The position numbers were made by a program, and so were the translations under genes. Below, piece after piece: positions 24,927-39,499 of a stretch of 55,287 nt of DNA. The stretch comes from Domibacillus indicus (GTDB lineage: Bacteria; Bacillota; Bacilli; Bacillales; Domibacillaceae), in contig NZ_LAJB01000019.1 in NCBI RefSeq assembly GCF_000970685.1, forward strand, positions 1-55,287, given 5' to 3'. Position 1 is the stretch's first letter. Each line of letters begins with the position of its first letter. The notes below the pieces were generated by a model. It had not been told where the DNA came from. It saw only the letters and a list, made by a program, of their open reading frames with translations, and did no database searches.

Positions 24927-26264
24927 TTACTGTAAAATAGCGGTCCGGCTGAGCAGACGTTTAATGGAAGCGTCTGCTTCTTTCAGCACGGTTTCTTTGT
25001 TGATTGTTTTCATGCGGCCGTTTTCCATTACTACCCTGCCGTCAACAATGGTTGTTTCCACATCCGCGCGTGTTGCCGAATAAACGATGCGGGAAATGGG
25101 GTCCACATCATAGGAGGGGAATGTATGAAAGCTGTTTAAATTTAAGATGGCCAGGTCTGCTTTCTTGCCGATTTCAATACTGCCGATTTCATGATCCATT
25201 CCGACAGCGCGGGCGCCGCCAATAGTCGCCATTTTAAACACAGCGCGGGCGTTCATGCAGGTTGGGCCATAAATCGGTTTTTGAATAAGAGCAGCAAGGC
25301 GCATTTCGTTAAACATATCCAAATTATTGTTGCAGGGAGCTCCGTCGGCCCCGAGGCTGACGGAGGAGCCGTCGTTAAGCAGCCCGGGAATATCAGCGAT
25401 ACCGGAAGCGAGCTTTAAGTTTGATCCGGGGCAGTGGCTGACATTGACACCGCGCTCTCGAATAATCCGCTTTTCCTGTTCATCGAGCCAGATGCAGTGT
25501 GCCAAAATAAGCCGCTCGTTGGCAAGGCCGAGATGATCGAGATAAACAACATTGCGCATGCCGGTTTCCTGCTCGACAATGGCGATTTCCCCTTTGTTTT
25601 CGGAAGCATGGGTATGTACTTTAACATTGTAGTGAGCAGACAGCTTCTGCACTTCTCGCAGCAGCTCTTCTGTGCAGGAAACGACAAACCTTGGGGAAAA
25701 CGCATATTGAATGCGGCCGCTGTCATACATGTGCCATTTCTCTAATAAACCAACACTTTCTTGAATGGATGCAGCTGTTTTTTCCTGAAGGCCGGCCGGG
25801 ACCTCATTTCCTTTGTCCATCATTACCTTGCCGGACAGGGCGCGGATGCCGCTTTCCGCAATGGCTTGAAACGCAAAATCGGTGTGGCTGACCGTTTCCA
25901 TATCAACGATGGTTGTAGTGCCGCTTTGCAGGAGTTCCCCGATACCGAGCATGGCTGAATAGTAAATAGATTCTTCATCATGAGAAGCTTCAAGCGGCCA
26001 TATTCTTTTTTTCAGCCAGTCCATTAATTCGAGATCATCCCCTTTTCCTCTAAACAGTGTCTGGCACAGGTGAATATGGGTTTGGACAAACCCGGGAATG
26101 ACTGTCCGGCCGGATGCATCAATTATGTGATCCGCTGCTGTGCCGCTGAAAGAGGCGCCGATCGAGCTGATCCGGCCATCTTTAATATAAAGATCCCCTT
26201 TGATAATTTCCTCCCTTGCGTTCATTGTGATAATCTGTGCATTTTTGATCAATAAGCTTTCCAT
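24927..26264 (-). CDS. Amidohydrolase: guanine / 5'-deoxyadenosine (SAH, MTA) deaminase type
   Basis: A 445-aa zinc-dependent aminohydrolase of the SsnA/MtaD group. Metal and substrate residues: His63 and His65 (THIHL), His217 and Glu222 (HTHASEN), His256 (LAHCIW), Asp307 (GADGAP). The ATG at 26264 follows GGAGGG. By sequence it fits 5-methylthioadenosine/S-adenosylhomocysteine or 5'-deoxyadenosine deaminases. Its leader has a guanine-type riboswitch and a TnrA box, and pucR with the xanthine dehydrogenase genes lie close by, which favours guanine deaminase (guanine to xanthine plus ammonia). The activity is therefore inferred mostly from context. Confidence 0.8.
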   Translation of the reverse strand: MESLLIKNAQIITMNAREEIIKGDLYIKDGRISSIGASFSGTAADHIIDASGRTVIPGFVQTHIHLCQTLFRGKGDDLELMDWLKKRIWPLEASHDEESIYYSAMLGIGELLQSGTTTIVDMETVSHTDFAFQAIAESGIRALSGKVMMDKGNEVPAGLQEKTAASIQESVGLLEKWHMYDSGRIQYAFSPRFVVSCTEELLREVQKLSAHYNVKVHTHASENKGEIAIVEQETGMRNVVYLDHLGLANERLILAHCIWLDEQEKRIIRERGVNVSHCPGSNLKLASGIADIPGLLNDGSSVSLGADGAPCNNNLDMFNEMRLAALIQKPIYGPTCMNARAVFKMATIGGARAVGMDHEIGSIEIGKKADLAILNLNSFHTFPSYDVDPISRIVYSATRADVETTIVDGRVVMENGRMKTINKETVLKEADASIKRLLSRTAILQ

Positions 26265-26284
26265 TTTATTCCCTCCAGTCAAAT

Positions 26285-26332
26285 AAAAAAGGCTGCGAAA
26301 AAATAAGCGATGCTGCTTATTTTTTCGTAGCC
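26285..26332 (-). terminator. Riboswitch expression platform: intrinsic terminator
   Basis: On the - strand an 18-bp stem (26332-26315 with 26308-26291, one A-C mismatch) with 6-nt loop AGCATC is followed by six T (26290-26285). The 5' arm begins GGCTACG, so it contains the J3/1 and the 3' strand of aptamer helix P1. Terminator and ligand-bound aptamer cannot coexist. Confidence 0.85.
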
Positions 26333-26391
26333 GGGAATTTGCGGTTCCGAGTAGAGACCCTTAACCCATATTGTTAAGGATATACGAAAAA
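26321..26391 (-). promoter_or_regulatory. Purine riboswitch aptamer, guanine type
   Basis: On the - strand: P1 TTTTTCGTA with TACGAAAAA; P2 CCTTAAC/GTTAAGG with loop AATATGG; J2/3 GTCTCTAC; P3 with loop CCGCAAA; J3/1 GCTACG. Loops and junctions follow the purine aptamer consensus. The base that pairs with ligand in J3/1 is C (as in guanine/hypoxanthine aptamers, U in adenine ones). Oddities: P3 has an internal C-C mismatch (TCGGAA/TTCCCG), and G replaces the usual A just before the C. Position and terminator overlap predict ligand-activated expression of the deaminase. Confidence 0.85.
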
Positions 26392-26436
26392 GATAAGTTG
26401 ATCATAAGGGTCTGGCAGAAGCAATTCAACTTATCT
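26391..26436. repeat. Inverted repeat spanning the deaminase promoter
   Basis: AGATAAGTTGA (26391-26401) and TCAACTTATCT (26426-26436) are perfect 11-bp arms 24 nt apart. One arm overlaps the -35, the other the start point. It may be an operator for a dimeric or looping regulator, for example PucR. Confidence 0.5.
26401..26429 (-). promoter_or_regulatory. Promoter of the deaminase leader
   Basis: On the - strand TTGAAT (26429-26424), 17-nt spacer, TATGAT (26406-26401). Predicted start near 26394, directly at the beginning of aptamer helix P1. Confidence 0.75.
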
Positions 26437-26452
26437 GTAAGAAAATCTTACG
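26436..26452 (-). promoter_or_regulatory. TnrA/GlnR box, activating position
   Basis: TGTAAGAAAATCTTACG matches the TnrA/GlnR consensus TGTNANAWWWTMTNACA at 16 of 17 positions. Its centre (26444) is about 50 bp upstream of the predicted start of the - strand transcript, the position from which TnrA activates in B. subtilis. Confidence 0.75.
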
Positions 26453-26519: not shown

Positions 26520-26936
26520 ATGAATGTACAGTTTTTAAACGAACAGCATAAAAGCCGTTTTGAGCTGGCAAGGGCCTCGATGCCCGCTATGCAGCAGGCA
26601 GACCGGTCAAAGCTTGCTTTTGTATTTTTAGTGACAGGAGACCGTACGCTGAGGAAAACGCTCAATCCATATATTCATTTAAAGGATGGCCGTTTTTTAT
26701 GGACGGACACACTTTCCAGCCCGGATGCGGATGCAGCCAATGGCAGCAGCACATTTTTGACACTGGCTATTCAGCTTTTAAGCAATCAAAAAATAACGGC
26801 GCCTGTTTATTTGATGGATGAATTAAGTGATGACCAGCTAAAGCTGGCCCTTAGTGCCATTATTATCCGTCGTATTGGAATCCCAGCCTTTCCTGAGAAA
26901 GAAAAAACAGATGAACGCTATTATTACTATATGTAA
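26520..26936 (+). CDS. Hypothetical protein (138 aa)
   Basis: A small soluble protein not recognised with confidence; it may belong to an uncharacterised DUF family of Firmicutes. It begins MNVQFLNEQHKSRFELARAS, has no signal peptide or TM segment, contains LAFVFLVTGDRTLRK and a hydrophobic LALSAIIIRRIGIPAF helix, and ends in a Tyr-rich tail (DERYYYYM). AAGGAGG precedes the ATG. It is divergent from the deaminase and convergent with pucR; the duplicated terminator and inserted element follow its stop codon. The role in purine use, if any, is unknown. Confidence 0.7.
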   Translation: MNVQFLNEQHKSRFELARASMPAMQQADRSKLAFVFLVTGDRTLRKTLNPYIHLKDGRFLWTDTLSSPDADAANGSSTFLTLAIQLLSNQKITAPVYLMDELSDDQLKLALSAIIIRRIGIPAFPEKEKTDERYYYYM

Positions 26937-27117: not shown

Positions 27118-27145
27118 CCCGGAGAAAGAATCTCCGGGCTTTTTA
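27118..27145. terminator. Terminator hairpin, right copy
   Basis: Same 24 bases as the left copy, here followed by the T-run and overlapping the pucR stop codon (27143-27145). It still terminates pucR on the - strand and could have been the original bidirectional terminator. Confidence 0.85.
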
Positions 27146-28759
27146 TGCATTCAATAAGTGCTTTATACGCAAAGCGAGACGCACCTGCAGGGAAAAATCA
27201 GGATCCTTTAACGAAATACCGAGCAGCTCTTCGCATTTTTCCAGCCTGTATACGACTGTGTTGCGGTGCACAAACAGCCGCTTGGCGGTTTCGGAAATGT
27301 GGCAGTGGCTTTCCATATACACAAACAGTGTATCAAGCAGCGATTTCTCTTCTTCTAAATTGCTCAGCTTCAGCTGCTGGGTAGTATGCTTGTAAAATTG
27401 AATTAAATCCTTTGCGGGCAAAAGCCTTAACAGCTCATTTACATCTTTTGTCCGGTGAAAGTGGATGGAAGAAGGCCCGCTGGACAGCCTGTTGGTTTTC
27501 AAAGCATCACGCGCTTCTTTATAACCCTGGCGAACAAATAAAAGGGAAGAGCAAAGATGGCTGACACCAAAGGACATGGTTATTTTATGCTCGCGGCTCA
27601 GGCGGTTTTGGAGCTTATGTAAAAACGAAGCTGTGAACGAGTGAGTGTCTTTAATATGGTCAGGAGCTTTTAAAAGCAAAATTAATGTTTCGCCTTTTGT
27701 GAATAAATGACAGGGAACGTCCATTGTATGCAGCTCTTTTTCGAAAAAATGACAAATTTCATCAAGTTCTTTCTGATTTGTATAATAGGACCACTCTTCC
27801 TCGGGCGCATCGATCCGCCCGGCGGCGCAAATATATTTTTGCTTCAGCGGCAGATCAAATTCCTTTGCGCGGCTGACAGATTCTTCTTCACTTGAAAAAG
27901 CATCATCTAAAAAGTTTAAGAAAAATTCATTGCGGATGCGCCGTGTAAACTGTTTGACAGCATCCTCTTTTAAAAGCTCAAATGATATAACATTCAGCGC
28001 CTGCTCAATGGTCAGCAGTTTAACGTGTTCCTGTGGATAAATTGCTCCTTCAAGCAGGAGAAGCGCTGCATTTTTCTTGTGTGCATAAACGGGAAACAGC
28101 GTATAGGTTTTTTCAGCGGCGAGCGTAGTAAAAGTAGAGAAAGCAGAGCCCGGCGATAAGAAAGAGCCATGCTGTGACGACCATTCTTTTAAAAGAGAAA
28201 GAACATCGGACAACTGGCGGTCTCCGGCAAGAAGAGAGAAATAAGACGTGCACAAAAAAGCACGGTGCCCGGTCAATTCCGTTAAATTAGCGAGCAGTGC
28301 ATTCAAGCCCTTGCCGCCCATGATATGGCTTGAGAACAGCTTATGTGTTTCAATGGCACTGTGCAATTCACTTGTCCGCTTGTCAAGAATAACATTGAGC
28401 ATTTGATTGACTGTTTCACCGAGTGACCAGTTTTCAGGAATTTCAACGATAGGGAATTCAAGGCGATTGGCAAGCTGGATTGCTTCAGAAGGCAGCTGGC
28501 CGAAAAAGCGTTTTGTTTTTATAAACAGAGCGGCACAATGCTTGCGGGCCATTTGGTCGATAAGATAAATCAGCTTATCAGAATCGTCTTTGACATGGTA
28601 GCCTGTGGTAACAAGCAAATCGTTCGGCTTTAAGTAAGGGAGAATATCCGGAGCGTCCATCATCGTTACATTGGTAATATCGTTTAAAGCTCCTTTTTCA
28701 CCCGCAATCCATTTCATATCTTGAAAAGGAGCCTGATTAAGCAGTGTTTTTAGTTTCAC
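27143..28759 (-). CDS. pucR: PucR family transcriptional regulator of purine catabolism
   Basis: A 538-aa regulator of usual PucR length. N-terminal PucR domain (residues ~1-125, with TNVTMMDAPDILPYLKP and LLVTTGYHVKDD), central GGDEF-like/CdaR-type domain, and a C-terminal helix-turn-helix (HCHISETAKRLFVHRNTVVY, then RLEKCEELLG). The GTG at 28759 follows GGAGGG; an upstream extension has no ribosome binding site. It is divergent from the uric acid genes, as in B. subtilis, where PucR controls the puc genes and senses allantoin-type inducers. A TnrA box lies in the shared promoter region. Confidence 0.93.
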   Translation of the reverse strand: MKLKTLLNQAPFQDMKWIAGEKGALNDITNVTMMDAPDILPYLKPNDLLVTTGYHVKDDSDKLIYLIDQMARKHCAALFIKTKRFFGQLPSEAIQLANRLEFPIVEIPENWSLGETVNQMLNVILDKRTSELHSAIETHKLFSSHIMGGKGLNALLANLTELTGHRAFLCTSYFSLLAGDRQLSDVLSLLKEWSSQHGSFLSPGSAFSTFTTLAAEKTYTLFPVYAHKKNAALLLLEGAIYPQEHVKLLTIEQALNVISFELLKEDAVKQFTRRIRNEFFLNFLDDAFSSEEESVSRAKEFDLPLKQKYICAAGRIDAPEEEWSYYTNQKELDEICHFFEKELHTMDVPCHLFTKGETLILLLKAPDHIKDTHSFTASFLHKLQNRLSREHKITMSFGVSHLCSSLLFVRQGYKEARDALKTNRLSSGPSSIHFHRTKDVNELLRLLPAKDLIQFYKHTTQQLKLSNLEEEKSLLDTLFVYMESHCHISETAKRLFVHRNTVVYRLEKCEELLGISLKDPDFSLQVRLALRIKHLLNA

Positions 28760-28783
28760 CGAATCCCTCCAAAAAACATTTTG

Positions 28784-28800
28784 TGTAATAAAATATAACA
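28784..28800 (+). promoter_or_regulatory. TnrA/GlnR box, perfect match
   Basis: TGTAATAAAATATAACA matches TGTNANAWWWTMTNACA at all 17 positions. Its centre (28792) is about 48 bp upstream of the start predicted from the promoter at 28805-28833, the TnrA-activation geometry. It also lies in the leader/promoter of pucR. Confidence 0.85.
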
Positions 28801-28804
28801 CAAA

Positions 28805-28833
28805 TTGAGTATGTTTTGTTATAAAAATATAAA
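28805..28833 (+). promoter_or_regulatory. Promoter of the uric acid operon
   Basis: TTGAGT (28805-28810), 17-nt spacer, TATAAA (28828-28833); start near 28840. An alternative is ATGACA (28862-28867), 17 nt, TAAAAT (28885-28890). Confidence 0.55.
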
Positions 28834-28898
28834 ATAATTTATTATTTAGTTGTTTTAACTAATGACAATAGAGATACCCCTTTGTAAAATATTTATTA

Positions 28899-28915
28899 TG
28901 TTATTTAACATTACA
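28899..28915. promoter_or_regulatory. Second TnrA/GlnR-like box
   Basis: TGTTATTTAACATTACA matches the consensus at 15 of 17 positions. It could serve pucR on the - strand (about -50 from a TATTGT -10 at 28870-28865) or act on the + strand leader. Confidence 0.5.
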
Positions 28916-28941
28916 CAAAAGAAAGAGAAGAGGTGTCGAGC

Positions 28942-29466
28942 TTGCTGACAATCCAATTCGTTAATGAAATGAAAAAGTCTTCCTTCGTCCAGCATTTTGG
29001 CGGGGTATATGAGCATTCCCTCTGGGTAGCAGAACGGGCAGCCCATAGCCGTCCGTTTTCCTCGATTCGATCCTTGCATGAGCAGATGGTTTTGATTGTG
29101 CGCGAATCATCCGTTTCTGATCAGCTGGCACTGCTGCGCAATCATCCGAACCTTGGAGCAAGAATAAAGATGACAGATTCCTCCGTGAAAGAGCAGGCCA
29201 GTGCGGGTTTAACGGCTCTTTCAGAAGGTGAATTTACACAGTTTTCAATGCTGAACAAAGCTTATACAGAAAAGTTTGATTTTCCTTTTATTATCGCTGT
29301 CCGTGGCAAATCGAAAGAAGAGATCAGCATGAATATGGAAAAGCGTCTGGAAAATGATAAAAAAACGGAATTTGATACGGCTTTAAATGAAGTATTTAAG
29401 ATCGCTCATTTCCGAATAAGGGACATTGTTGCTGCTGAAAAGGAGCCGAGTGAATGCCTGCATTGA
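28942..29466 (+). CDS. OHCU decarboxylase
   Basis: 2-oxo-4-hydroxy-4-carboxy-5-ureidoimidazoline decarboxylase, last step from urate to S-allantoin. The 174-aa single-domain protein carries GGVYEHSLWVAERA with the catalytic His, RNHPNLG and a closing ALNEVFKIAHFRIRDIV helix. The TTG at 28942 lies 8 nt after AAGAGG; the in-frame GTG at 28933 overlaps that site. In B. subtilis PucL this domain is fused to urate oxidase. Here the oxidase part is absent and not found elsewhere in the window. Overlaps the HIU hydrolase gene by 13 nt. Confidence 0.9.
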   Translation: MLTIQFVNEMKKSSFVQHFGGVYEHSLWVAERAAHSRPFSSIRSLHEQMVLIVRESSVSDQLALLRNHPNLGARIKMTDSSVKEQASAGLTALSEGEFTQFSMLNKAYTEKFDFPFIIAVRGKSKEEISMNMEKRLENDKKTEFDTALNEVFKIAHFRIRDIVAAEKEPSECLH

Positions 29467-29810
29467 CTACACATATTTTAGATTTAACGCACGGACAGCC
29501 GGCATCAGGAGTCGAGGTGGATGTTTATTTTGTAAAGACCGAATCAGAAAAGAGGATCATCGCACAATCCGTCACCAACCGCGATGGCCGGGTGGATAAA
29601 CCTCTGGTGGCAGAAGCGGATTTTGAAGAAGGAGAGTACGAGCTTTTATATTATATTGGTGATTATTTTGGCCGGAAAGAAGTTTCTGCCGGCAGCCCGC
29701 CGTTTTTAAATCGGGTGGCGGTGCGGGTGAGCCTGTCAGCATCCGCGGCTCATTATCATATTCCGCTTCTTATTTCGCCTTGGGGTTATCAAGTGTATAG
29801 AGGAAGCTGA
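29454..29810 (+). CDS. pucM: 5-hydroxyisourate hydrolase (transthyretin-like)
   Basis: A 118-aa enzyme converting 5-hydroxyisourate to OHCU. Family signatures: LTTHILDLTHGQPA with catalytic His at the N-terminus, TNRDGRVD with Arg, HYHIPLLISPWGYQVYRGS with catalytic His and the C-terminal YRGS tetrapeptide. No signal peptide, so cytoplasmic. Translationally coupled to the OHCU decarboxylase gene; together they process the product of urate oxidase to allantoin. Confidence 0.96.
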   Translation: MPALTTHILDLTHGQPASGVEVDVYFVKTESEKRIIAQSVTNRDGRVDKPLVAEADFEEGEYELLYYIGDYFGRKEVSAGSPPFLNRVAVRVSLSASAAHYHIPLLISPWGYQVYRGS

Positions 29811-29811
29811 C

Positions 29812-29848
29812 AAAAAGGGCAATGATTTTTAAATCAGCGCCCTTTTTT
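29812..29848 (+). terminator. Terminator between pucM and pucA
   Basis: AAAAAGGGC pairs with GCCCTTTTTT, with inner stem TGATTT/AAATCA. It separates the uric acid genes from pucABCDE or acts as an attenuator, since no clear promoter precedes pucA. Confidence 0.8.
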
Positions 29849-29881
29849 AGCACAGCAAATCTTAGAGGGGGGAACATCGTT

Positions 29882-30886
29882 ATGGAGGAAATTCATGATG
29901 TGCTGGATGCCATTAGCAATACTTCGGCTGGAGGTGTACTGGCAATGATCGTTAAAGTCACCGGCTCTGCTTATAAAAAGGAAGGAGCAGCAATGTTATT
30001 TAAGCCGGATGGAACGCAGGTGGGCTTGCTGAGCGCCGGCTGTCTGGAGGAAGATCTGGCCGGGCGGCTGGAAGAAAATGATGAGCTGTATAGGGAGCTT
30101 ATATATGATATGCGCGGTGAGGATGAGTTTTCCTGGGGGGAAGGTTCAGGCTGTAATGGAGTTATTCACATATGGACTGAAAAGCTGACTGAGGCACATC
30201 TAACGCATTTGCTTCAATTAAAAAAATTACTTCAGGAAGGCCAGTCTGTATTAATGATAAAAAAGCGGGGTGACCGTCCGGGTTATTTGTTTGTTCCCGA
30301 GTCAGGAGAGGCGTTCGGGCATTGGGAAGGCGGCATACCGGACAATGGCCGGGTGCTTGAACGCGGGATGTTTTTCAGCAAAGCGCTGAAAAGCGATGTG
30401 TATGTACACCGAATTCGCCCAAAGCGAAGGCTGGTTGTATTTGGAGCAGGTCCCGATGCGCGCCCGCTCGTTTCATTTGCGGCCGGTGCCGGGTTCTCGG
30501 TTACGGTTGCTGACTGGCGCCCCGCTTTTTGCACAGCAGATCATTTTCCATCTGCAGAAACCCGTATTGTCGGTTTTCCGCATGAGGTGCTCGGCCAATT
30601 AAAGCTGAAATCAGATGATTGCGTTGTAGTCATGACTCATAATTTCAAACGGGATCAGGAGCTGGTATGCGCATTGGCAAAGAAGGAACTGAGGTATCTT
30701 GGTGTACTTGGTTCGGAGAAAAGAACCGCCCGCTTGTTTGGGGCAGACACTGTTCCTTCAGGAGTTTCCTCGCCGGCCGGTTTAGCCATTCGGGCTCAGG
30801 GAGCAGAAGAAATTGCGATCAGCATTGTCGCCCAGCTTATTGAAGTGAGCCATGCGGTTTCCGTGAAAGAAGCGGCCTGCATATGA
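29882..30886 (+). CDS. pucA: Xanthine dehydrogenase maturation protein, XdhC family
   Basis: A 334-aa XdhC/CoxI protein needed to insert sulfurated molybdenum cofactor into xanthine dehydrogenase. N-terminal domain with GSAYKKEGAAMLF and LLSAGCLEEDLAGRL (conserved Cys), C-terminal Rossmann domain with VVFGAGPDARPLVSFAAGAG (20 residues) and YLGVLGSEKR. The ATG at 29882 follows AGAGGGGGGAA. First gene of pucABCDE; its stop overlaps the pucB start (ATGA). Confidence 0.92.
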   Translation: MEEIHDVLDAISNTSAGGVLAMIVKVTGSAYKKEGAAMLFKPDGTQVGLLSAGCLEEDLAGRLEENDELYRELIYDMRGEDEFSWGEGSGCNGVIHIWTEKLTEAHLTHLLQLKKLLQEGQSVLMIKKRGDRPGYLFVPESGEAFGHWEGGIPDNGRVLERGMFFSKALKSDVYVHRIRPKRRLVVFGAGPDARPLVSFAAGAGFSVTVADWRPAFCTADHFPSAETRIVGFPHEVLGQLKLKSDDCVVVMTHNFKRDQELVCALAKKELRYLGVLGSEKRTARLFGADTVPSGVSSPAGLAIRAQGAEEIAISIVAQLIEVSHAVSVKEAACI

Positions 30887-31581
30887 ACAGTCCGATTATC
30901 GGTATTTTGCTCGCAGCTGGCAGCAGCCGCCGGATGGGCGAAAACAAGCTGCTGCTGCCGCTTGGTGATACAACGATTGGGGGAGCAACACTCAGGGCGG
31001 CGCTTTCCTCCAGACTTGACCATGTGGTTGTTGTCAGAAAAAAAGAAGAGGAAGCCTGCTGGATACAGCCTGATTTTTTGAGGGAAAGAAATTGGTCGCA
31101 AACAGTTTGTAAGGATGCTTCCCGAGGTCAGGCGTATTCACTGGCAGCCGGTTTGAAAGCAGCTGAAAACGCGGGTGCAGGGGCCGCCGTGATTCTTCTG
31201 GCAGACCAGCCGTTTGTTAATTCGAGTTTAATTAATGAGCTGATAGATATGTATAACGCAAGGAAGCCGGCATTTGTTTCATCGCGTTTCCACGATATTG
31301 CCCGGCCGCCGGTGCTTTTTTCAAGGCATCTTTTTGCAGAGCTTCAGAAACTGGAGGGGGACCGGGGGGCGGGAAATTTGCTGAAGCAGCCGTCTTTTGC
31401 CTGCAGGGGCATTATGATTGAGAGGAAAAGAGACTATTCCTTTTTTGATATCGATACAAAGAAAGATTACAAAGAAGCGGTAAGGAGGGAGAGGAATGGT
31501 GGCTGCGTTAACGGCGACATCAACATCTGTCTGGCAGCCGGTGAGCCTGGAAGAGGCCCGGGCATTAAAAAAAGAGCTTGA
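30883..31581 (+). CDS. pucB: Molybdenum cofactor cytidylyltransferase-like protein
   Basis: A 232-aa MobA/MocA nucleotidyltransferase. GILLAAGSSRRMGENKLLLP (20 residues) is the nucleotide-binding loop, with LLADQPF and the metal Asp further on. It likely makes molybdopterin cytosine dinucleotide for the dehydrogenase. The C-terminus runs about 25 residues past the usual family end and overlaps the start of pucC by 86 nt in another frame, a large overlap for this operon. Overlaps pucA by 4 nt. Confidence 0.9.
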   Translation: MNSPIIGILLAAGSSRRMGENKLLLPLGDTTIGGATLRAALSSRLDHVVVVRKKEEEACWIQPDFLRERNWSQTVCKDASRGQAYSLAAGLKAAENAGAGAAVILLADQPFVNSSLINELIDMYNARKPAFVSSRFHDIARPPVLFSRHLFAELQKLEGDRGAGNLLKQPSFACRGIMIERKRDYSFFDIDTKKDYKEAVRRERNGGCVNGDINICLAAGEPGRGPGIKKRA

Positions 31582-32353
31582 TGGCGTATCCCGGTTTATT
31601 GCCGGAGGAACGCTTATGCAAATGCAGCGGGAGCAGGGAATTGCATTTCCTCCTCATTTAATCAGCCTGGAGCGGATTCGTGAACTGGCAGATATTGAAG
31701 AGACGGTGGACCGGTCCATTCGAATCGGTGCGCTGACCGACCTGGAGACATGTCGCACCCACTCATTGATAAAAAGGAAGTGCCCTGTTTTAGGGAAAGC
31801 AGCTGGCACGATTGCCTCGCCGGCTGTGCGAAACCGGGGCACGCTTGGCGGCAATATTCTTTATGGTGTCGGGGACGCTATTCCAATTTTGCTGGCGCTG
31901 GATGCGCGCCTCTCCTGGTTTTGTGAGGGTGGTATTCAGTCTGAGCCGCTTGCTGGCTTCGTTGATAGAAAAGAAGCTCCGGAGGAAGGAGCTATTTTAA
32001 CCGATATTATCATTCCTTCTCCTGTAAAAGGCCGCTGTTTTTTTCACAAAGTCGGGCGAAGAGAAGCGTTTATTCCGTCTGTTGTGACTGTTGCGATGTA
32101 CGTGGAAGTTACCGGTTCAAATACAGTTAAAATGATTCGGATGGCGGTTGGGGGCGGTGTTAATACACCGATGCGTTTAAAGGAATGTGAAGAAATGGTA
32201 AGCGGCAAGCAGCTGACAGACGGCTTCATGTCTGGTCTTGCCAGCCGTATCAAAAAGGAGTCAGCCCTGATTGGCGACGTTTTCGCATCAGCGGATTACC
32301 GGAGGACTGTGGCAGCGAACCTTCTTGTCAGGGAGCTGCAGTCTGTTCTATAA
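31496..32353 (+). CDS. pucC: Xanthine dehydrogenase, FAD-binding subunit
   Basis: A 285-aa FAD subunit (CoxM/XdhB type). FIAGGTLMQMQ and AGTIASPAVRNRGTLGGNIL (20 residues) are the two FAD-binding motifs; the C-terminal domain has KVGRREAFIPSVVTVA. AAGGAGGGAGAGG immediately before the ATG makes this start firm even though it lies 86 nt inside pucB. It passes electrons from the iron-sulfur subunit to the acceptor. Confidence 0.93.
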   Translation: MVAALTATSTSVWQPVSLEEARALKKELDGVSRFIAGGTLMQMQREQGIAFPPHLISLERIRELADIEETVDRSIRIGALTDLETCRTHSLIKRKCPVLGKAAGTIASPAVRNRGTLGGNILYGVGDAIPILLALDARLSWFCEGGIQSEPLAGFVDRKEAPEEGAILTDIIIPSPVKGRCFFHKVGRREAFIPSVVTVAMYVEVTGSNTVKMIRMAVGGGVNTPMRLKECEEMVSGKQLTDGFMSGLASRIKKESALIGDVFASADYRRTVAANLLVRELQSVL

Positions 32354-32375
32354 AGCTGGAGAAAGGAGCATAAGG

Positions 32376-34604
32376 ATGAAAAAAAATATCCGGCCGGATG
32401 GAAAAGCGAAAGTAACAGGGAAAATGAAGTACCTGACAGATTTATCGTTCCCGCATATGCTCTACGGGAAAATTTTAAGAAGCCCTTACCCGCATGCCCG
32501 TATTCTTTCCATTTCCACTGATGAAGCACAGCGTCTGCCTGGTGTTCAGGCGGTCATTACACATAAAGATGTACCTGCCTTAAATGGGTTTGGTATCGTA
32601 ACACCGGATCAGCCGGTATTATGCAAGGATATTGTACGATATGTTGGAGATGCTGTAGCGGCTGTGGCGGCCGACTCTATTGAGATCGCCGCCCGGGCGC
32701 TTGAACTGATAGGAATTCAATATGAGCCTCTGCCCGTTCTGGACTGCCCGGAAAAAGCGCTGGAAGAAACAGCGCCGCTTCTTCATCCAGACGGCAATGT
32801 TCTTCATCGTGCAGGATTCCAAAAAGGGGATATTGAAAAAGAATTTTCCCAATGTGCAAAAATTGTTGAAGAAACGTATCAAGTACCGCGCCAGCTGCAT
32901 GCATATATGGAAACAGAAGGCGGGGTCATTGTGCCGGAAAAGAACGGCAGTCTTACTGTTTATGTGGGCACGCAGCATGGATTTAAAGACCAGTTTCAGC
33001 TGGCCCGGATTTTGGGGATGCCGGCAGAACGCATTCGGATTGTATCGAGCCCGATGGGAGGATCGTTTGGCGGGAAAGATGAACTCAACATCCAGCCGTA
33101 TGGTGCTCTGCTCGCATTGAAAACCGGAAAACCGGTGAAAATCCACCAGACAAGGCAGGAATCGATGCGTTCAAGCATTAAACGCCACCCGATGAAGATT
33201 ACGATGAAAACAGGAATTGACCGGGAGGGGAGGCTGCGTGCCCACCAAACAAGAATTGTGGCCGATACGGGCGCTTATGCGACGCTTGGACCGGCCATTC
33301 TGGATTTTGCTGTTGAGCATGCGGCCGGTCCGTATATGATCCAGGCTGTTGACACAAAGGGTATTTCCGTTTTTACCAATAACGGTGTTTCTGGAGAATT
33401 TCGCGGGTTTGGAGGGAACCAGGTTACGTTCGCTCTTGAAGGGCAAATTGACCGCCTGGCCGAGGCTATTGGCATGGATGGTATAGCAGTGAGGCGTCTT
33501 AATATTCGGAGCAAACAAGATCCCGGGCCGCTTGGGCAGAGAATCGTTGAAACAGATGGCGCTTTGGATGTGCTGGAATCAGCCGCTGCAGTGTATGCGG
33601 AGAAAAAACGGCTGCCTTTAAAACAAGATACGTGGAAGCGGACGGGCGTAGGGATGGCTGTGACGATGCACGGCGGCGGACTTGGGTTTGGACGGCTGGA
33701 TCCTGCCGGCGGGCGCCTGTCATTTAAAGAAGATGGAAAAATTGAAATTGCTTTTGGCTTTGAGGAAGCAGGCCAGGGAATCCTTGCTGTTATTGAAGCC
33801 ATCACGGCCGGGCAGCTGGGCTGCGCGAAGGAGGATATTTCCATCATAATTGGTGATACGTCGCTTGTACCGTCATCCGGCTCTACTACCGCTTCGCGGG
33901 GAACGAGCATGGTCTGGCATTCGCTTCAGCGGCTGAAAAAACCGTTTTTGCAAAAATTGCTGGCCCGGGCAGCGCGAAAAACAGGGATAGAAGAAAAGCG
34001 GCTCTCAGTCGGCCCGGGTGGTATTCAGGTAAATGGAGAATACAAACTGTCCTTTCAGGAGCTGGCAGCAGGCGAGGAGCCGATTGTTGTTGCTGCACAA
34101 TTCGATTTTCCGGTTTCGCCCGATCCAATTGATTCAGCCCATTTTTTATACACATACAGTGGTGTCGTTGCTCAGGTGGAGGCAGATCTTTTAACGGGCA
34201 GAATACGTGTAACCGGCCTGCACCAGACAACAGCAGCCGGGCCGGTCGTCAACGAAATGGGCTATATAGGACAAATTGAAGGAGGCGGCGTGATGGCGCT
34301 TGGTTATACGCTGATGGAAGATGTTACGATGACAGAGGGCCATTATGCGGTGGAAAACTTTGATTCCTACTTAATTCCAGGAATTGTGGATGTGCCTTTT
34401 AACTTGCAGGTGAGAGCAATCGAATCGCTGCCGGCTGAAGATCATTATGGACCGCGCGGTGTGGGGGAAATTGGAACGGTCGCGGTAGCCCCGGCCATTG
34501 CCAGTGCTATTTATGATGCAGTCGGCTTGAGGGTCAGCCGGCTGCCGGTTAAGCCGGAAGCATTACTGCAATCAATTGAAAGGAGTGTTCTCTATGAAAG
34601 TTAA
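32376..34604 (+). CDS. pucD: Xanthine dehydrogenase, molybdopterin-binding subunit
   Basis: The 742-aa catalytic subunit. Substrate and cofactor regions: GKILRSPYPHARI, YVGTQHGFKDQFQLARILG (Gln loop), SPMGGSFGGKDE, GVSGEFRGFGGNQV (Arg of the purine site), and GPRGVGEIGTVAVAPAI near the end with the active-site Glu. Converts hypoxanthine/xanthine to urate. The ATG at 32376 follows AAAGGAG. Overlaps pucE by 11 nt. Confidence 0.94.
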   Translation: MKKNIRPDGKAKVTGKMKYLTDLSFPHMLYGKILRSPYPHARILSISTDEAQRLPGVQAVITHKDVPALNGFGIVTPDQPVLCKDIVRYVGDAVAAVAADSIEIAARALELIGIQYEPLPVLDCPEKALEETAPLLHPDGNVLHRAGFQKGDIEKEFSQCAKIVEETYQVPRQLHAYMETEGGVIVPEKNGSLTVYVGTQHGFKDQFQLARILGMPAERIRIVSSPMGGSFGGKDELNIQPYGALLALKTGKPVKIHQTRQESMRSSIKRHPMKITMKTGIDREGRLRAHQTRIVADTGAYATLGPAILDFAVEHAAGPYMIQAVDTKGISVFTNNGVSGEFRGFGGNQVTFALEGQIDRLAEAIGMDGIAVRRLNIRSKQDPGPLGQRIVETDGALDVLESAAAVYAEKKRLPLKQDTWKRTGVGMAVTMHGGGLGFGRLDPAGGRLSFKEDGKIEIAFGFEEAGQGILAVIEAITAGQLGCAKEDISIIIGDTSLVPSSGSTTASRGTSMVWHSLQRLKKPFLQKLLARAARKTGIEEKRLSVGPGGIQVNGEYKLSFQELAAGEEPIVVAAQFDFPVSPDPIDSAHFLYTYSGVVAQVEADLLTGRIRVTGLHQTTAAGPVVNEMGYIGQIEGGGVMALGYTLMEDVTMTEGHYAVENFDSYLIPGIVDVPFNLQVRAIESLPAEDHYGPRGVGEIGTVAVAPAIASAIYDAVGLRVSRLPVKPEALLQSIERSVLYES

Positions 34605-35088
34605 TCATCAAACAGCAGAAAAAACAGAGGCAATGCCTGTGTCTTTTCTGTTAAATGGGGAAACCGTTCAATTAAATATCTCTCCAGTGATGAGAGCGGT
34701 CGATGTAATTCGTAACGAACTAAACCAGACGGGAACTAAAATTTCATGCGGTATCGGCCGGTGCGGGGCCTGCTCGATTTTGCTGAATGGAAAATTGGCG
34801 GTTTCATGCCTTATTCTTGCCTATCAGCTTGAAGACGCTTCGGTTGTAACGATTGAAGGGCTGTCAGATGGAAAACAAATGCACCCGATTCAGGAAGCGT
34901 TTCTTGAAGAAGGGGGCTTTCAATGCGGCTATTGTACACCGGGAATGATAATGGCGGCGAAATGCCTTCTTGACTCGAATCCAAAACCGGATCAGGCGGA
35001 TATCCAAAAAGCTTTTTCAGGGAACTTATGCCGCTGCACAGGCTATGGCGGGATTGTTCGGGCGATACAGTGTGCCAGCTCAAAATAA
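34594..35088 (+). CDS. pucE: Xanthine dehydrogenase, 2Fe-2S subunit
   Basis: A 164-aa electron-transfer subunit with two 2Fe-2S clusters. Plant-type motif CGIGRCGACS plus a later Cys (VSCLIL), and CGYCTPGM with CRCTGY in the helical domain. The ATG at 34594 follows AAAGGAG by 8 nt. Completes pucABCDE in the same order as in B. subtilis. Confidence 0.95.
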   Translation: MKVNHQTAEKTEAMPVSFLLNGETVQLNISPVMRAVDVIRNELNQTGTKISCGIGRCGACSILLNGKLAVSCLILAYQLEDASVVTIEGLSDGKQMHPIQEAFLEEGGFQCGYCTPGMIMAAKCLLDSNPKPDQADIQKAFSGNLCRCTGYGGIVRAIQCASSK

Positions 35089-35110
35089 ATATTGTTATAT
35101 TATCTTACAT

Positions 35111-35146
35111 AAAGAGGCGTAATCCAACAAGGATTACGCCTCTTTT
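35111..35146 (+). terminator. Terminator of pucABCDE
   Basis: AAAGAGGCGTAATCC / GGATTACGCCTCTTTT, 15-bp stem with AACAA loop and T-run. Confidence 0.93.
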
Positions 35147-35160
35147 CTATTTTACTGCTA

Positions 35161-35208
35161 ACAAGATGAATAATATTTAGTGATAATGCACATTGAGGTT
35201 CATCTTGT
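35161..35208. repeat. Inverted repeat upstream of the ureide ABC operon
   Basis: ACAAGATGAA (35161-35170) and TTCATCTTGT (35199-35208) are perfect 10-bp arms 28 nt apart. The right arm falls between -35 and -10 of the promoter. Possible operator; the regulator is unknown. Confidence 0.5.
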
Positions 35209-35221
35209 CTGTGAATATGAT
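35193..35221 (+). promoter_or_regulatory. Promoter of the ABC importer operon
   Basis: TTGAGG (35193-35198), 17-nt spacer, TATGAT (35216-35221). Confidence 0.6.
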
Positions 35222-35237
35222 GTTAATAGATATTACA
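35221..35237. promoter_or_regulatory. TnrA/GlnR-like box at the ABC importer promoter
   Basis: TGTTAATAGATATTACA matches the consensus at 15 of 17 positions. It covers the predicted start site, so GlnR/TnrA would repress from here unless a second promoter further down is used. Confidence 0.5.
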
Positions 35238-35289
35238 TAGATAGAGAATGCCGTTTTAAATAAGAATTGAGTTAGGAGGAGAGAGCGAC

Positions 35290-36081
35290 ATGACGACCAA
35301 ACAAAAGCAGGCCGTTTATTTTCAAAATGTCAGCAAAATCTATAATACCGGTACGATTGCTCTTAATCATTTTGACTTTTCGGTGGAAGAAGGAGAGTTT
35401 GTCAGCTTTCTTGGGCCTTCTGGATGCGGAAAATCTACTGCGCTGAGAATGGTAGCCGGACTTGGCTCTCCAACAGTAGGCGAAGTGACCGTTTTTGATA
35501 AAACGCCGGAAGAGCTTATTAAAAATACAAATGACATCGCTTTTGTGTTTCAGGACGCCAACCTGCTTCCATGGCGCAGTGTGCTTGATAATGTTCTGCT
35601 GCCGCTTGAGCTTCGCGGCGGGAATAAAAAAGAGAAACAAGAAGCTGCAGTCAAAGTGCTGGAGATGGTCGGATTAAAAGACCATCTCAAATCATACCCG
35701 AGACAGCTATCCGGCGGAATGAGAATGCGTGTCTCCATTGCCCGTGCGCTTGCAGCTAAACCAAAGCTTCTGCTCATGGACGAACCCTTTGCAGCCCTGG
35801 ATGAAATCACCCGGCAGACCCTGCAGATGGAGCTGCTCGATATATGGGAAAAAGAAAAAATGACCGTTTTATTTGTGACACACAACGTATATGAAGCCGT
35901 CTTTTTATCTTCTAAAATTGCAGTTATGTCTGCTCGCCCGGGAAGACTTTCATCGGTCATTGATGTAAACCTTCCATACCCTCGTGAATTGGGCATGAGA
36001 ACAGATCCTGCTTTTTCAAAATATGTTGATATTGCCTCGGCCAGTCTTGAAAATCATGAACATCGAAAGGAGACAGTTTAA
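35290..36081 (+). CDS. ABC importer ATPase (nitrate/sulfonate/NMT1 type)
   Basis: A 263-aa ATPase of the SsuB/TauB/ThiZ group. Walker A GPSGCGKST, Q-loop FVFQDANLLPWRSV (the LLPW motif is typical of this group), signature LSGGMRMRVS, Walker B LLLMDEPFAALDE, switch His in THNVYEA. AGGAGG lies 8 nt before the ATG. The permease gene begins at the next base after its stop. Together with 36082 and 36968 it forms a complete importer, probably for a purine breakdown product, given its place among the puc genes. Confidence 0.9.
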   Translation: MTTKQKQAVYFQNVSKIYNTGTIALNHFDFSVEEGEFVSFLGPSGCGKSTALRMVAGLGSPTVGEVTVFDKTPEELIKNTNDIAFVFQDANLLPWRSVLDNVLLPLELRGGNKKEKQEAAVKVLEMVGLKDHLKSYPRQLSGGMRMRVSIARALAAKPKLLLMDEPFAALDEITRQTLQMELLDIWEKEKMTVLFVTHNVYEAVFLSSKIAVMSARPGRLSSVIDVNLPYPRELGMRTDPAFSKYVDIASASLENHEHRKETV

Positions 36082-36942
36082 ATGGCAATGTCGGAAATGG
36101 AAATAACGAAGAAGCAAAATGCGTTAGCAGCCGCAGGAAAAAAGAATAAGCCACTGGGTACGACATTTAAAGAAATGTATCTCGGTCCCATCGTTGCATT
36201 TATTTTGTTTATTTCAATGTGGCAGCTGATCCCTCTTGCTCTGGGTCTTCCCCATTATATTCTGCCGAAGCCAACAGACGTTTTAGAGGCAACGGTATCT
36301 GATTGGGCTTTGCTTGGAGAAGCGATCCGCATTACGATTTTTGAATCAGTGATCGGCTTTTTGCTAAGCGCTGTAATAGGCATCGGTGTTTCTGTTCTTT
36401 TGGCCAGTTCCAAAATACTGGAGCGAAGCATTTATCCATATGCGATCATTTTGCAGACCATCCCAGTCGTGGCGGTAGCTCCGATTGTGGTCATCTGGTT
36501 TGGCGCCGGCTTTAACTCTATTGTTGTTATTTCTTTTTTAATCGGGTTTTTCCCGGTTATCTCCAATACATTAATGGGCTTAAATTCCGTTGATAAAAAC
36601 ATGGATGAGCTTTTTACTTTGTACAATGCATCAAAGTGGCAAAGAATGTGGAAGCTCCGCATTCCAGCAGCCATGCCTTACATCATGGCCGGACTGAAAA
36701 TTTCCTGTACATTGTCCATCGTCGGCGCTATTGTCGGTGAATATGTAGCGGGAATAGGCGGCGGAAATGGCGGCCTGGGTTATGCCATTACAGTCGCAGC
36801 CATTCAAGTAAAAACATCGTTTTTGTTTTCATGTGGAATTGCGGCAGCGATCCTGGGAATCAGCTTTTATCTGCTCGTCAGCCTGTTCTCAAAAATGATG
36901 CTTGGCAGCTGGCATGAATCAGCAATGAAATCAGAAAAATAA
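36082..36942 (+). CDS. ABC importer permease (SsuC/ThiX type)
   Basis: A 286-aa inner-membrane permease with about six TM helices after a ~35-residue cytoplasmic N-terminus. The EAA loop that contacts the ATPase is visible in LFTLYNASKWQRMWKLRIPA (20 residues) followed by AMPYIMAGLK, as is the typical IVGEYVAGIGGGNGGLGY segment. AAAGGAG precedes the ATG. Confidence 0.9.
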   Translation: MAMSEMEITKKQNALAAAGKKNKPLGTTFKEMYLGPIVAFILFISMWQLIPLALGLPHYILPKPTDVLEATVSDWALLGEAIRITIFESVIGFLLSAVIGIGVSVLLASSKILERSIYPYAIILQTIPVVAVAPIVVIWFGAGFNSIVVISFLIGFFPVISNTLMGLNSVDKNMDELFTLYNASKWQRMWKLRIPAAMPYIMAGLKISCTLSIVGAIVGEYVAGIGGGNGGLGYAITVAAIQVKTSFLFSCGIAAAILGISFYLLVSLFSKMMLGSWHESAMKSEK

Positions 36943-36967
36943 AGAGATAGATAGAGGAGGAAATGGA

Positions 36968-37987
36968 ATGGAGATTCGAAAATGGAAACAAAAAGGGCTG
37001 CTTGCTTCGATGATGGCAGTGAGTTTAATGCTTGCGGCATGCGGAGAGGAAAGCGCCTCGAATACAGAAAGCGAGCCAGCCGGTGCGGAAGGGAAAATAG
37101 AAGACGTAAAGCTGGTGCTAAACTGGTTCCCGAAATCCCAGCATGGCGGCGTATACAGTGCAGTTGAAGAAAGAACATTTGAGGAAAACGGATTAAATGT
37201 AGAGGTGGAACCGGGCGGCCCGCAAGTATCGCCTGTACAAATTGTTTCCGCCGGCGATGCACAGTTTGGCCTTGCACATGCGGACCAGATGCTGATTGCG
37301 CGCAATCAGGGAATTGAACTTGTTGCGCTCGCTGCCACCATGCAGGGAAGCCCTCAGGCCTTTATGTTTCACAAGGGAGAAGACATTCAAGGCTTCGAGG
37401 ATTTGAACGGCCGTGAAGTATTTGTTCAGCCCGGCATTACCTACTGGGACTTCTTGAAAAACAAATATGATTTAAGCGGTGCGACGGAACTGGGCTACAA
37501 CGGCCAGCATGTGAATTTTATCGACAGTAAAACATCGGTGACCCAGGCGTTCGTTACTTCAGAACCGTTTTTCATGGAGCAGGAAAATGTACCGGTTGAA
37601 ACACTGCTCGTCTCGGAGTCGGGCTATGACCCGTACAATGTCGTGCTGTTTACCACAAAGAACTATTTGGAGAGCAATAAAGAAACCGTCGAGAAGTTTG
37701 TTGAATCCTATATAAAAGGCTGGAAGTCATACGAAGAATCATCTGACAAGATTAATGAAGTGATTATCGGTGAAAATCCAAATATTGAGCTTGAGGCATT
37801 GAACTTTGAAACAGAAACGCAGCATGAATATGTTTACGGCAAGGATGCCGCTGAGCATGGAATCGGCTATATGACGGAAGAGCGCTGGGATACATTGAAA
37901 AACCAGCTTCTTGATATCGGGCTGCTTGAGGAAGACTTTGAGACAAGCGAGATTTTCACAACCGAATTTTTACCGGGCCATGAATAA
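36968..37987 (+). CDS. ABC importer substrate-binding lipoprotein (NMT1/THI5-like)
   Basis: A 339-aa exported lipoprotein. The signal peptide ends in lipobox LAAC with Cys25. The NMT1/SsuA-like domain follows: VLNWFPKSQHGGVYSAVEE, ISAG-type loop IVSAGDAQFGLAHADQML, GREVFVQPGITYW and VTSEPFFME. Related proteins bind pyrimidine precursors, riboflavin, sulfonates or nitrate; allantoin, urate or another ureide is likely here from the neighbours. GGAGGA lies 7 nt before the ATG. Confidence 0.88.
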   Translation: MEIRKWKQKGLLASMMAVSLMLAACGEESASNTESEPAGAEGKIEDVKLVLNWFPKSQHGGVYSAVEERTFEENGLNVEVEPGGPQVSPVQIVSAGDAQFGLAHADQMLIARNQGIELVALAATMQGSPQAFMFHKGEDIQGFEDLNGREVFVQPGITYWDFLKNKYDLSGATELGYNGQHVNFIDSKTSVTQAFVTSEPFFMEQENVPVETLLVSESGYDPYNVVLFTTKNYLESNKETVEKFVESYIKGWKSYEESSDKINEVIIGENPNIELEALNFETETQHEYVYGKDAAEHGIGYMTEERWDTLKNQLLDIGLLEEDFETSEIFTTEFLPGHE

Positions 37988-38002
37988 GAACGAATTGGAA
38001 AG

Positions 38003-38038
38003 ACCTTAGTTTCTCCCGGATACTAAGGTTTTTCTTTT
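38003..38038 (+). terminator. Terminator after the ABC importer
   Basis: ACCTTAGT / ACTAAGGT stem followed by TTTTTCTTTT. No promoter is evident before the next gene 30 nt on, so partial read-through is likely. Confidence 0.75.
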
Positions 38039-38066
38039 CCAGTGGTGAATGAATTGAGGAGATTAC

Positions 38067-39452
38067 ATGAAGACATTGTTAATCAAAAACGCTAGAAATA
38101 TTATTTCAATGGATGAAAAGCGCCGCCAGTACCCGCGCGGAAACATCTATATAGAGGGGCAGGAAATCAAAGCCATTGGTTCCGTTATTCCCTTTGAAAC
38201 AGCAGATACGGTTATTGATGCCCGGGATAAAATTGTTTATCCGGGCCTGATCAATACCCACCATCATTTGTATCAAACTTTTACACGGAATATTCCGAGA
38301 GCGCAGGACTGCGAATTATTTGACTGGCTGCTTACGCTTTATGACATTTGGCGTCATATTGAACCGGAGGATGTTTATTTAAGTGCCATGACCGGCCTGG
38401 GTGAATTATTAAAAAGCGGCTGTACAACTGTGGCGGATCATTTTTATGTTTTTCCAAACGGCATAAGCGGCGAGCTGATTGATGAAGAAATCCGGGCAGC
38501 CCGTGACCTTGGCGTCCGTTTCTTTCCCACAAGAGGCTCGATGAGTTTAGGCAGGTCACGGGGCGGTCTGCCGCCAGATGAAGTGGTTCAGACAGAAGAG
38601 ATCATTTTACGGGATACGAGACGTGTCATTGAAAGATACCATGATTCAAGCAAATTTTCATTTCTGCGGGTTGGCGTTGCGCCGTGCTCCCCATTTTCAG
38701 TCAGCAAATCATTATTAAAAGAATCCGCTCATCTGGCAAGAAGCTACGGAGTGCGTATGCACACCCATTTAGCCGAAACAAAAGATGAAGAAAGGTTTTG
38801 CCGCGAAAAGCTGGGACTTCGGCCGTTAGAATTAATGGAAGAAACGGGCTGGGTCGGCAGTGATGTCTGGTACGCGCATGGAATCTGGTTTAATCAGCAT
38901 GAAATGCAAACCATGGGTTCATGCGGATGCGGAGTTGCTCACTGCCCAAGCAGCAATATGAAGCTTTCTTCAGGTGCTTTTCCCATCCTCGACATGAAAA
39001 GAGCAGGTGTGAAAGCAGGGCTTGGCGTAGATGGTTCGGCGTCGAATGATGCATCAAACATGCTTCTTGAATTAAAGATAATGAACCTTCTTCATAAGCA
39101 TCAGCAGGGGATAAACGCTCTGTCTGCAGAAGAATGCTTGTCAACAGCAACAAATGGCTCCGCAGAAGTATTAGGCTGGGAAGATGCCATCGGATCGCTT
39201 GAAGCCGGAAAAGCGGCTGATTTATTCATGATTGATACGAATCGTCTTGAGTATGCCGGCGCGCTGTTTGACGATGCGGCCCTGCCCATTTTAACAGGAA
39301 CTCCTCAAGTGCACACAACAATTGTAGGGGGAAAAGTAGTAGTAGAAAACGGGCGGCTCATTCATATTGATGAACAGAAGCTGGCAGTTAAAGCACAGCA
39401 GGCAGCGATGCGGATGGTTGAAACGGCGATGAAGCATACAAATATAAATTAA
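38067..39452 (+). CDS. 8-oxoguanine deaminase (TRZ/ATZ amidohydrolase)
   Basis: A 461-aa zinc aminohydrolase. Metal His in NTHHHLYQTFTR (65-67), the substrate segment ELFDWLLTLYDIWRHIEPED typical of 8-oxoguanine deaminases and hydroxydechloroatrazine hydrolases, HTHLAET, AHGIWF, VAHCPSSNMKL and LGVDGSASND (Asp). 8-Oxoguanine deaminase yields urate, which would feed the uric acid genes upstream. Heads the operon with pucF, pucG and the GGT homologue. The closely related atrazine-type activity cannot be excluded. Confidence 0.85.
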   Translation: MKTLLIKNARNIISMDEKRRQYPRGNIYIEGQEIKAIGSVIPFETADTVIDARDKIVYPGLINTHHHLYQTFTRNIPRAQDCELFDWLLTLYDIWRHIEPEDVYLSAMTGLGELLKSGCTTVADHFYVFPNGISGELIDEEIRAARDLGVRFFPTRGSMSLGRSRGGLPPDEVVQTEEIILRDTRRVIERYHDSSKFSFLRVGVAPCSPFSVSKSLLKESAHLARSYGVRMHTHLAETKDEERFCREKLGLRPLELMEETGWVGSDVWYAHGIWFNQHEMQTMGSCGCGVAHCPSSNMKLSSGAFPILDMKRAGVKAGLGVDGSASNDASNMLLELKIMNLLHKHQQGINALSAEECLSTATNGSAEVLGWEDAIGSLEAGKAADLFMIDTNRLEYAGALFDDAALPILTGTPQVHTTIVGGKVVVENGRLIHIDEQKLAVKAQQAAMRMVETAMKHTNIN

Positions 39453-39499
39453 CGTAGAAAAAGAGGAAGAAATACGATGCAGAAGAAGGGGGCAATTAT

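Follow-up and report, generated by a model that had tools for sequence, protein, structure and literature searches.

The leader of a putative purine deaminase gene on the minus strand of a 55,287-nucleotide stretch of Domibacillus indicus DNA (the whole of which is termed the window here) raises the question of whether an RNA built to bind guanine can turn on a gene of purine degradation. Here, the analysis suggests, with a probability of roughly 80%, that this leader is a transcriptional riboswitch in which an aptamer of the guanine-I type turns the deaminase gene ON.

The aptamer (26321–26391, minus strand, as for all leader elements below) is directly established by sequence reading, by the Rfam purine model RF00167 and by alignment. 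This covariance model, which had been named in advance as a possible refutation, scores it with 72.8 bits at 26308–26407 (gathering threshold 37 bits, E = 4.9e-11 over the window). The 5′ strand (26391–26383) and the 3′ strand (26329–26321) of P1 can be read directly from the sequence, as can G73 (26331) and C74 (26330). The pocket contains U22, U47, U51 and C74, which are all four guanine-I bases, and in the model alignment J2/3 and J3/1 have guanine-I length. The usual guanine-I base in J3/1 is A73, which does not define the class; it is absent from this aptamer and a G is found in its place. The preliminary description had called the aptamer guanine-type because of the C in J3/1, an assignment favored by the conservation of C74 together with U22, U47 and U51, and the two details it had listed, a G preceding the ligand-pairing C and a C·C mismatch in P3, are both present in the aligned rows.

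The 5′ arm of the terminator (26315–26332) holds nt 72–73 (junction side of P3 and J3/1), C74 and the entire P1 3′ strand, as had been claimed before and as is now confirmed by sequence, folding and a topology test. Within the 3′ arm (26291–26308), the segment UUUUUUCG is a copy of the P1 5′ strand, so that both compete for the P1 3′ strand and the terminator cannot form while P1 is closed. The arms form 17 pairs with one A·C mismatch and are followed by a tract of six U (26285–26290; sequence reading and terminator scan), and 8 nt further on by a ribosome binding site, GGAGGG (26271–26276, read by eye), and the ATG at 26264. The leader fold has an energy of −35.2 kcal/mol (z = −5.05), a stability that no member of a set of 200 dinucleotide shuffles reached. 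No second terminator was found by the terminator scan. Thus, the window displays the arrangement of the pbuE type, in which the 5′ arm contains J3/1 and the P1 3′ strand and no later terminator follows.

For a comparison across leaders, the topology test asked for a single hairpin whose 5′ arm is paired to at least 80% and includes C74, U75 and no fewer than 8 of nt 74–83. All 96 other purine aptamers in 24 genomes of the window's family served as controls, and identical rows were removed before counting (6 of 66 deaminase leaders and 5 of 96 controls, leaving 91 distinct ones). Of 60 distinct deaminase leaders, 56 have an overlapping terminator, that of the window included, vs. 13 of 91 controls; 71 controls have a terminator elsewhere and 7 have none. 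The 13 controls scoring ON comprise four of the adenine type (U74), which are all the adenine aptamers among the controls, four in front of GMP reductase and five with a long bulged helix (L155, L160, L162, L184 and L189). The latter look like false positives, the bulged helix probably being an antiterminator. This comparison backs the ON topology proposed earlier by analogy with the adenine pbuE switch. Two other versions of the test were discarded: a looser one, in which folding began at nt 71, failed to catch the GMP reductase leaders and scored xpt antiterminators as ON, and an intermediate one let multi-branched folds pass. Among the deaminase leaders, L081 fails through one mismatch at U75, and no such terminator was found by the test in L112 and L121 (Fictibacillus) and L055, leaders which may act otherwise than by an overlapping terminator. 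As to the genes behind single control aptamers, the U74 aptamer L190 precedes a gene best matching adenosine deaminase (184.3 bits, cut-off 216.55; the protein ends at the locus edge) and the L184 aptamer, as read by eye, a GMP synthase gene.

The arrangement is not restricted to one strain. Within the genus Domibacillus, 8 of 13 genomes carry a deaminase above the cut-off of NF005557, the NCBIfam family of the window's gene, and RF00167 lies just upstream in all eight. In a sample of the order, the deaminase gene is present in 50 of 299 genomes; the loci of 30 of these were examined (4 Domibacillus and 26 further), and outside Domibacillus an aptamer precedes the deaminase in 10 of 26 and was not found in 16. 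One of these 10, L055, is weak (37.0 bits). At this locus (L055:1399–1471) CACA occupies J1/2 and J2/3 is one base shorter (GUC-CUGCC); the combinations C22/G52 and C20/G76 look like compensatory changes. The topology test found no terminator here, and the aptamer is a possible pocket variant. Among the best 80 of at least 474 relatives, an aptamer was found at 51 loci (each below 1e-12) and precedes the deaminase gene in 48 and follows it in 3; at the other 29 of these 80 none was found, some loci, e.g., L135, ending at a contig edge. The gap from aptamer to gene in these 48 is 38–690 nt (median 80), and they include Domibacillus, Paenibacillus, Niallia, Metabacillus, Sporolactobacillus, Halalkalibacter, Salipaludibacillus, Evansella, Amphibacillus and Terrilactibacillus. 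These sites also gave 15 weak matches on the minus strand (E 0.007 to 4.2), which were omitted as mirror images; the loci of the 80 relatives come partly from genomes already included above, and identical leaders were counted once. Since aptamer, terminator overlap and gene order all recur in the orthologous leaders, whose comparison had been proposed at the outset, chance is excluded.

Conservation extends to the pairing itself. Here, 60 leaders with the hairpin (57 before the deaminase and three before a xanthine-dehydrogenase-like operon) were reduced to 37 at 90% identity and aligned by MAFFT without fitting to a model, and the pairs were read from this alignment. Terminator pairs hold in 93.8% and aptamer pairs in 91.8% of the cells in these 37 leaders; the rows were picked for having the hairpin, so these percentages are not independent and the double changes are the evidence. 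In the terminator, both partners are changed in 53 cells, a number reached by 0 of 500 shuffles (mean 11.5; 5–17 with slid partners), and these cells are spread over eight pairs (4.6 in shuffles, 6 of 500). In the aptamer, the corresponding number is 68, again reached by 0 of 500 shuffles (mean 24.0; 7–16 with slid partners); the four junction-proximal pairs of P1 are invariant and uninformative either way. As the P1 3′ strand belongs to both covarying helices, selection appears to keep two mutually exclusive folds. The terminator partner of nt 72 in the 37 leaders gives A-U in 17, G-C in 12, G-U in 6 and others in 2, and nt 73 forms G-C in 31, A-U in 3 and G-U in 3.

Folding of the nascent RNA from the inferred start shows which of the two folds is favored at which length. 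Up to nt 94, the P1 form lies no more than 0.4 kcal/mol off the best fold, and from about 90 nt P1 is accompanied by the top of the terminator hairpin. The terminator form overtakes at 96–104 nt and is better by 12.8 kcal/mol at 106 nt, when the U tract is being made. Because the terminator wins, the default would be termination and the ligand would have to act during transcription, as judged from energy parameters that include neither the ligand nor tertiary contacts.

Upstream of the aptamer, a sigma-A-like promoter, TTGAAT-17-TATGAT (26401–26429), was called by a promoter scan, which is no better than chance alone (1 found vs. 1.2 in shuffles); its placement just ahead of the aptamer supports the call. 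A TnrA/GlnR-like box, CGTAAGATTTTCTTACA (26436–26452), is centered 50 bp before the inferred start A26394 and has one mismatch to the TnrA consensus TGTNANAWWWTNTNACA, which is printed in PMC4475385. Boxes with at most one mismatch occur in 25 of 60 upstream regions (0.1 in shuffles) and with at most two in 44 of 60 (2.9 in shuffles), the shuffles preserving only single-base content; no box with at most two mismatches was found in the 10 controls that had enough upstream DNA. This suggests a second, nitrogen-dependent input. Guanine deaminase in B. subtilis, GuaD, has another fold. Its gene is listed as TnrA-regulated in PMC4475385, direct binding not being proven there.

Which ligand is bound is the more delicate question, since the deaminase leaders depart from other purine aptamers at two positions. 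In model alignments, G73 occurs in 57 of 60 deaminase leaders vs. 2 of the 91 distinct controls, 88 of which have A73 (two control rows, L226 and L232, were corrected by one base; G73 stood at 4 of 91 before), and C48 in 40 of 60 vs. 2 of 91. Furthermore, a Watson-Crick pair C53-G73 is possible, the two positions being C and G in 54 of 60 leaders and C and A in most other aptamers. These differences would fit a pocket variant for xanthine, hypoxanthine or a guanine derivative, a proposal in line with the preliminary description, which had read G73 and the P3 mismatch as possible signs of a variant ligand. On balance it seems unlikely. U47, U51 and C74 are unchanged in 60 of 60 deaminase leaders and U22 in 59, so the contact bases are those of guanine-I and the U51G hallmark of xanthine-II is absent. 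Joining-region insertions as in guanine-II and xanthine-II are likewise absent in the window, and among the 37 rows L131 has one extra base by J3/1. The G73 regarded as odd is the usual base of this family, and nt 73 pairs within the terminator of all 60 hairpin leaders (G-C in 54, G-U in 3, A-U in 3), which offers another reason for keeping it; the P3 position mismatched in the window is paired in 31 of 37 aligned leaders. The GMP reductase leaders have the same ON topology with A73, and therefore the ON design alone does not require G73. The pocket could nevertheless be tuned through G73, e.g., by a C53-G73 pair, in a manner that sequence does not reveal. From the contact bases we infer guanine as the ligand.

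A purine ON switch next to an amidohydrolase gene also recalls the 8-oxoguanine switch of Paenibacillaceae, which, according to a paper from 2023, reportedly acts as an ON switch in front of the gene for 8-oxoguanine deaminase. PMC9295807, too, mentions an 8-oxoguanine class resembling the guanine one. That the window leader senses 8-oxoguanine and controls such an enzyme is very improbable, though: its gene reaches only 305.4 bits with NF006055 (8-oxoguanine deaminase, cut-off 532), and the window contains a separate 8-oxoguanine deaminase (38067–39449, 596.4 bits, same cut-off), upstream of which neither R1 nor Rfam found an aptamer. Moreover, an 8-oxoguanine deaminase above the cut-off is present in 5 of 21 genomes of Paenibacillus and relatives, and all five genes are preceded by a different aptamer with J2/3 GCU-CUAC, in which U47 is changed and one base lost, while the same five genomes (L075, L076, L079, L082 and L096) carry a guanine-type leader before the NF005557 gene. 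It is even harder to believe that the leader is an ordinary OFF switch with the hairpin as antiterminator. The well-known guanine-I switches are indeed OFF, and in xpt-type leaders a helix with the P1 3′ strand ahead of a U run is an antiterminator, some of which the looser topology test had scored ON. Here, however, the hairpin abuts the U tract, the ribosome binding site follows 8 nt further on and the scan gave no second terminator. The genome has three other aptamers, for each of which the terminator lies elsewhere; these aptamers precede xpt (by eye), purE (NCBIfam) and a pbuG-like permease gene (by eye, without an NCBIfam match). The ON polarity is less exceptional than the preliminary description, with its contrast to the well-known OFF switches, held it to be, since an 8-oxoguanine ON switch is reported as well and PMC9295807 predicts ON for guanine-II, xanthine-II and 2′-dG-III variants.

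The reading as a guanine ON switch also depends on what the downstream gene (24927–26264, minus strand) encodes. It is an amidohydrolase of the purine/triazine deaminase group and looks degradative, in keeping with the purine deaminase described previously; its NCBIfam match is NF005557, named 5′-deoxyadenosine deaminase (734.9 bits, cut-off 522), and TIGR02967, guanine deaminase, stays below its cut-off (252.7 bits vs. 375.4). A correct switch in front of a 5′-deoxyadenosine or SAH-type deaminase would agree with this family name and with the nearest solved structure for the whole sequence, an MTA/SAH deaminase. A piece of the catalytic half gives 90.4 bits for an amidohydrolase without a name, 84.7 for MTA/SAH deaminase and 83.2 for yeast guanine deaminase. 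The motifs of this half tell differently: SPRFVVSC and THASENKGEI resemble TPRFAPSC and THLSENKEEI of yeast guanine deaminase and not the counterparts APHAPYTV of MTA/SAH deaminase or APCSPFSV of 8-oxoguanine deaminase, with PRF and SENxxEI present in the alignment to the yeast enzyme, the solved guanine deaminase covered here. An AlphaFold model (14-row alignment, mean pLDDT 50.5) was set aside. The characterized 5′-deoxyadenosine deaminase comes from Methanocaldococcus (M.) jannaschii; this organism scores below the NF005557 cut-off, and of 14 control genomes just Haloferax volcanii lies above. In addition, a guanine sensor before a 5′-deoxyadenosine enzyme would make little sense. Such an enzyme is therefore rather doubtful, and the NF005557 gene more likely encodes a guanine deaminase, which fits the sensor and the surroundings best.

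These surroundings (27143–40744) form a purine-catabolism cluster with a pucR-like regulator, OHCU decarboxylase, HIU hydrolase, xanthine-dehydrogenase-like genes (pucB, C and E matches below and pucD above curated cut-offs), an ABC transporter, the 8-oxoguanine deaminase and an allantoate-deiminase-like gene. Among the best 80 of at least 474 relatives, just 19 loci have purine-gene query matches within 4 kb, three of them a PbuG permease alone. Divergent from the deaminase runs an open frame of 138 residues (26520–26936, plus strand), for which no Pfam or NCBIfam match was found at E 0.001; positions 1–2700 of the window hold a 5S rRNA, behind it a long cluster of tRNAs and, at 23–89, a Bacillaceae-1 RNA.

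ON-type guanine aptamers are also found in front of other genes. In Geomicrobium, Virgibacillus and Ornithinibacillus they lie between the deaminase and a xanthine-dehydrogenase-like operon (L138:5844–5917, L117:5471–5542 and L113:5431–5502); the L138 operon best matches pucE and pucD, both below cut-off, the pucD protein ending at the locus edge. Before GMP reductase genes of three Domibacillus loci (L038, L040, L041) and one of the same family (L204), an A73/C74 aptamer with a very stable overlapping terminator is present, the enzyme being assigned by NCBIfam in L038 (660.8 bits, cut-off 465.65) and by its start sequence in the others. These leaders are predicted to be a second guanine ON switch.

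Concerning events in the cell, we infer the following course. RNA polymerase would transcribe the aptamer first. If guanine is absent, the terminator's 3′ arm would invade P1 and J3/1 as it emerges, and the terminator stem would be complete before the U tract ends, which would halt transcription. Bound guanine (or hypoxanthine) would instead keep C74, U75 and P1 in the aptamer, so that invasion stalls and the polymerase reads through into the deaminase gene. The enzyme probably converts guanine to xanthine, feeding the adjoining catabolic cluster, and the TnrA-like box probably adds nitrogen limitation as an input, so that the gene would be fully on only if nitrogen is short and guanine present.

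The aptamer and the ON mechanism are known as such; their pairing with a catabolic gene across many Bacilli was not found in the literature searched, and no guanine ON switch before an NF005557 deaminase or GMP reductase was found in the open-access literature searched, mostly title-level listings. Speculatively, these leaders might form a distinct, unrecognized sub-class of guanine aptamers (C53-G73, C48), tuned for ON control and perhaps altered in kinetics or ligand preference, which heads a TnrA-gated, guanine-ON catabolic regulon opposing the guanine-OFF switches of the same cell. If so, this regulon would comprise the deaminase, the xanthine dehydrogenase operon and also GMP reductase, the latter controlled by an aptamer of the ordinary A73 type. 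Guanine switches are textbook OFF switches, and if an ON form with an unchanged pocket is widespread, it would show how one aptamer serves opposite logic within one genome, where the aptamers of the xpt-, purE- and pbuG-like genes are not ON and that of the deaminase would be. Likewise, a common gene of Bacilli now named 5′-deoxyadenosine deaminase would need re-annotation, and a natural guanine-activated part would be available, in which a J3/1 base is paired in the terminator.

The closest mechanistic relative is the pbuE adenine riboswitch of Bacillus subtilis, which controls an efflux pump. In contrast, the gene of the window is a deaminase, its aptamer has C74 of the guanine type and its terminator reaches nt 72 and not through P3. 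In pbuE, P1 and J3/1 are invaded by the terminator's 3′ arm, as is predicted for the window. As described in PMC7707468, the ligand blocks this strand exchange and the gene is on, and the P4 toehold described there resembles the early upper terminator hairpin of the window.

The guanine-I switches (xpt, purE, pbuG; RF00167) share the fold and the contact bases U22, U47, U51 and C74 with the deaminase leaders, which differ by the opposite expression platform, G73 and mostly C48 in place of A73 and U48. The 8-oxoguanine riboswitch of Paenibacillaceae is likewise a purine three-way junction before a deaminase of the same superfamily; it is reportedly an ON switch with a narrower host range than the deaminase-leader family. 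Here, the aptamers ahead of the five 8-oxoguanine deaminase genes read GCU-CUAC in J2/3 vs. GUNUCUAC in most deaminase leaders, and the gene families differ. At L234–L238, apparent overlapping hairpins and runs of U lie between the GCU-CUAC aptamers and the 8-oxoguanine deaminase genes; these aptamers are presumably the published riboswitch and still score as Purine in Rfam. According to PMC9295807, xanthine-II and 2′-dG-III also precede degradative genes, like the window leader; guanine-II, xanthine-II and 2′-dG-III carry pocket substitutions or joining-region insertions that are absent in the deaminase leaders. The xanthine-I (NMT1) riboswitch, finally, is presented in PMC7373994 as a translational OFF switch, which senses the oxidized product and has a fold unrelated to that of the window switch.
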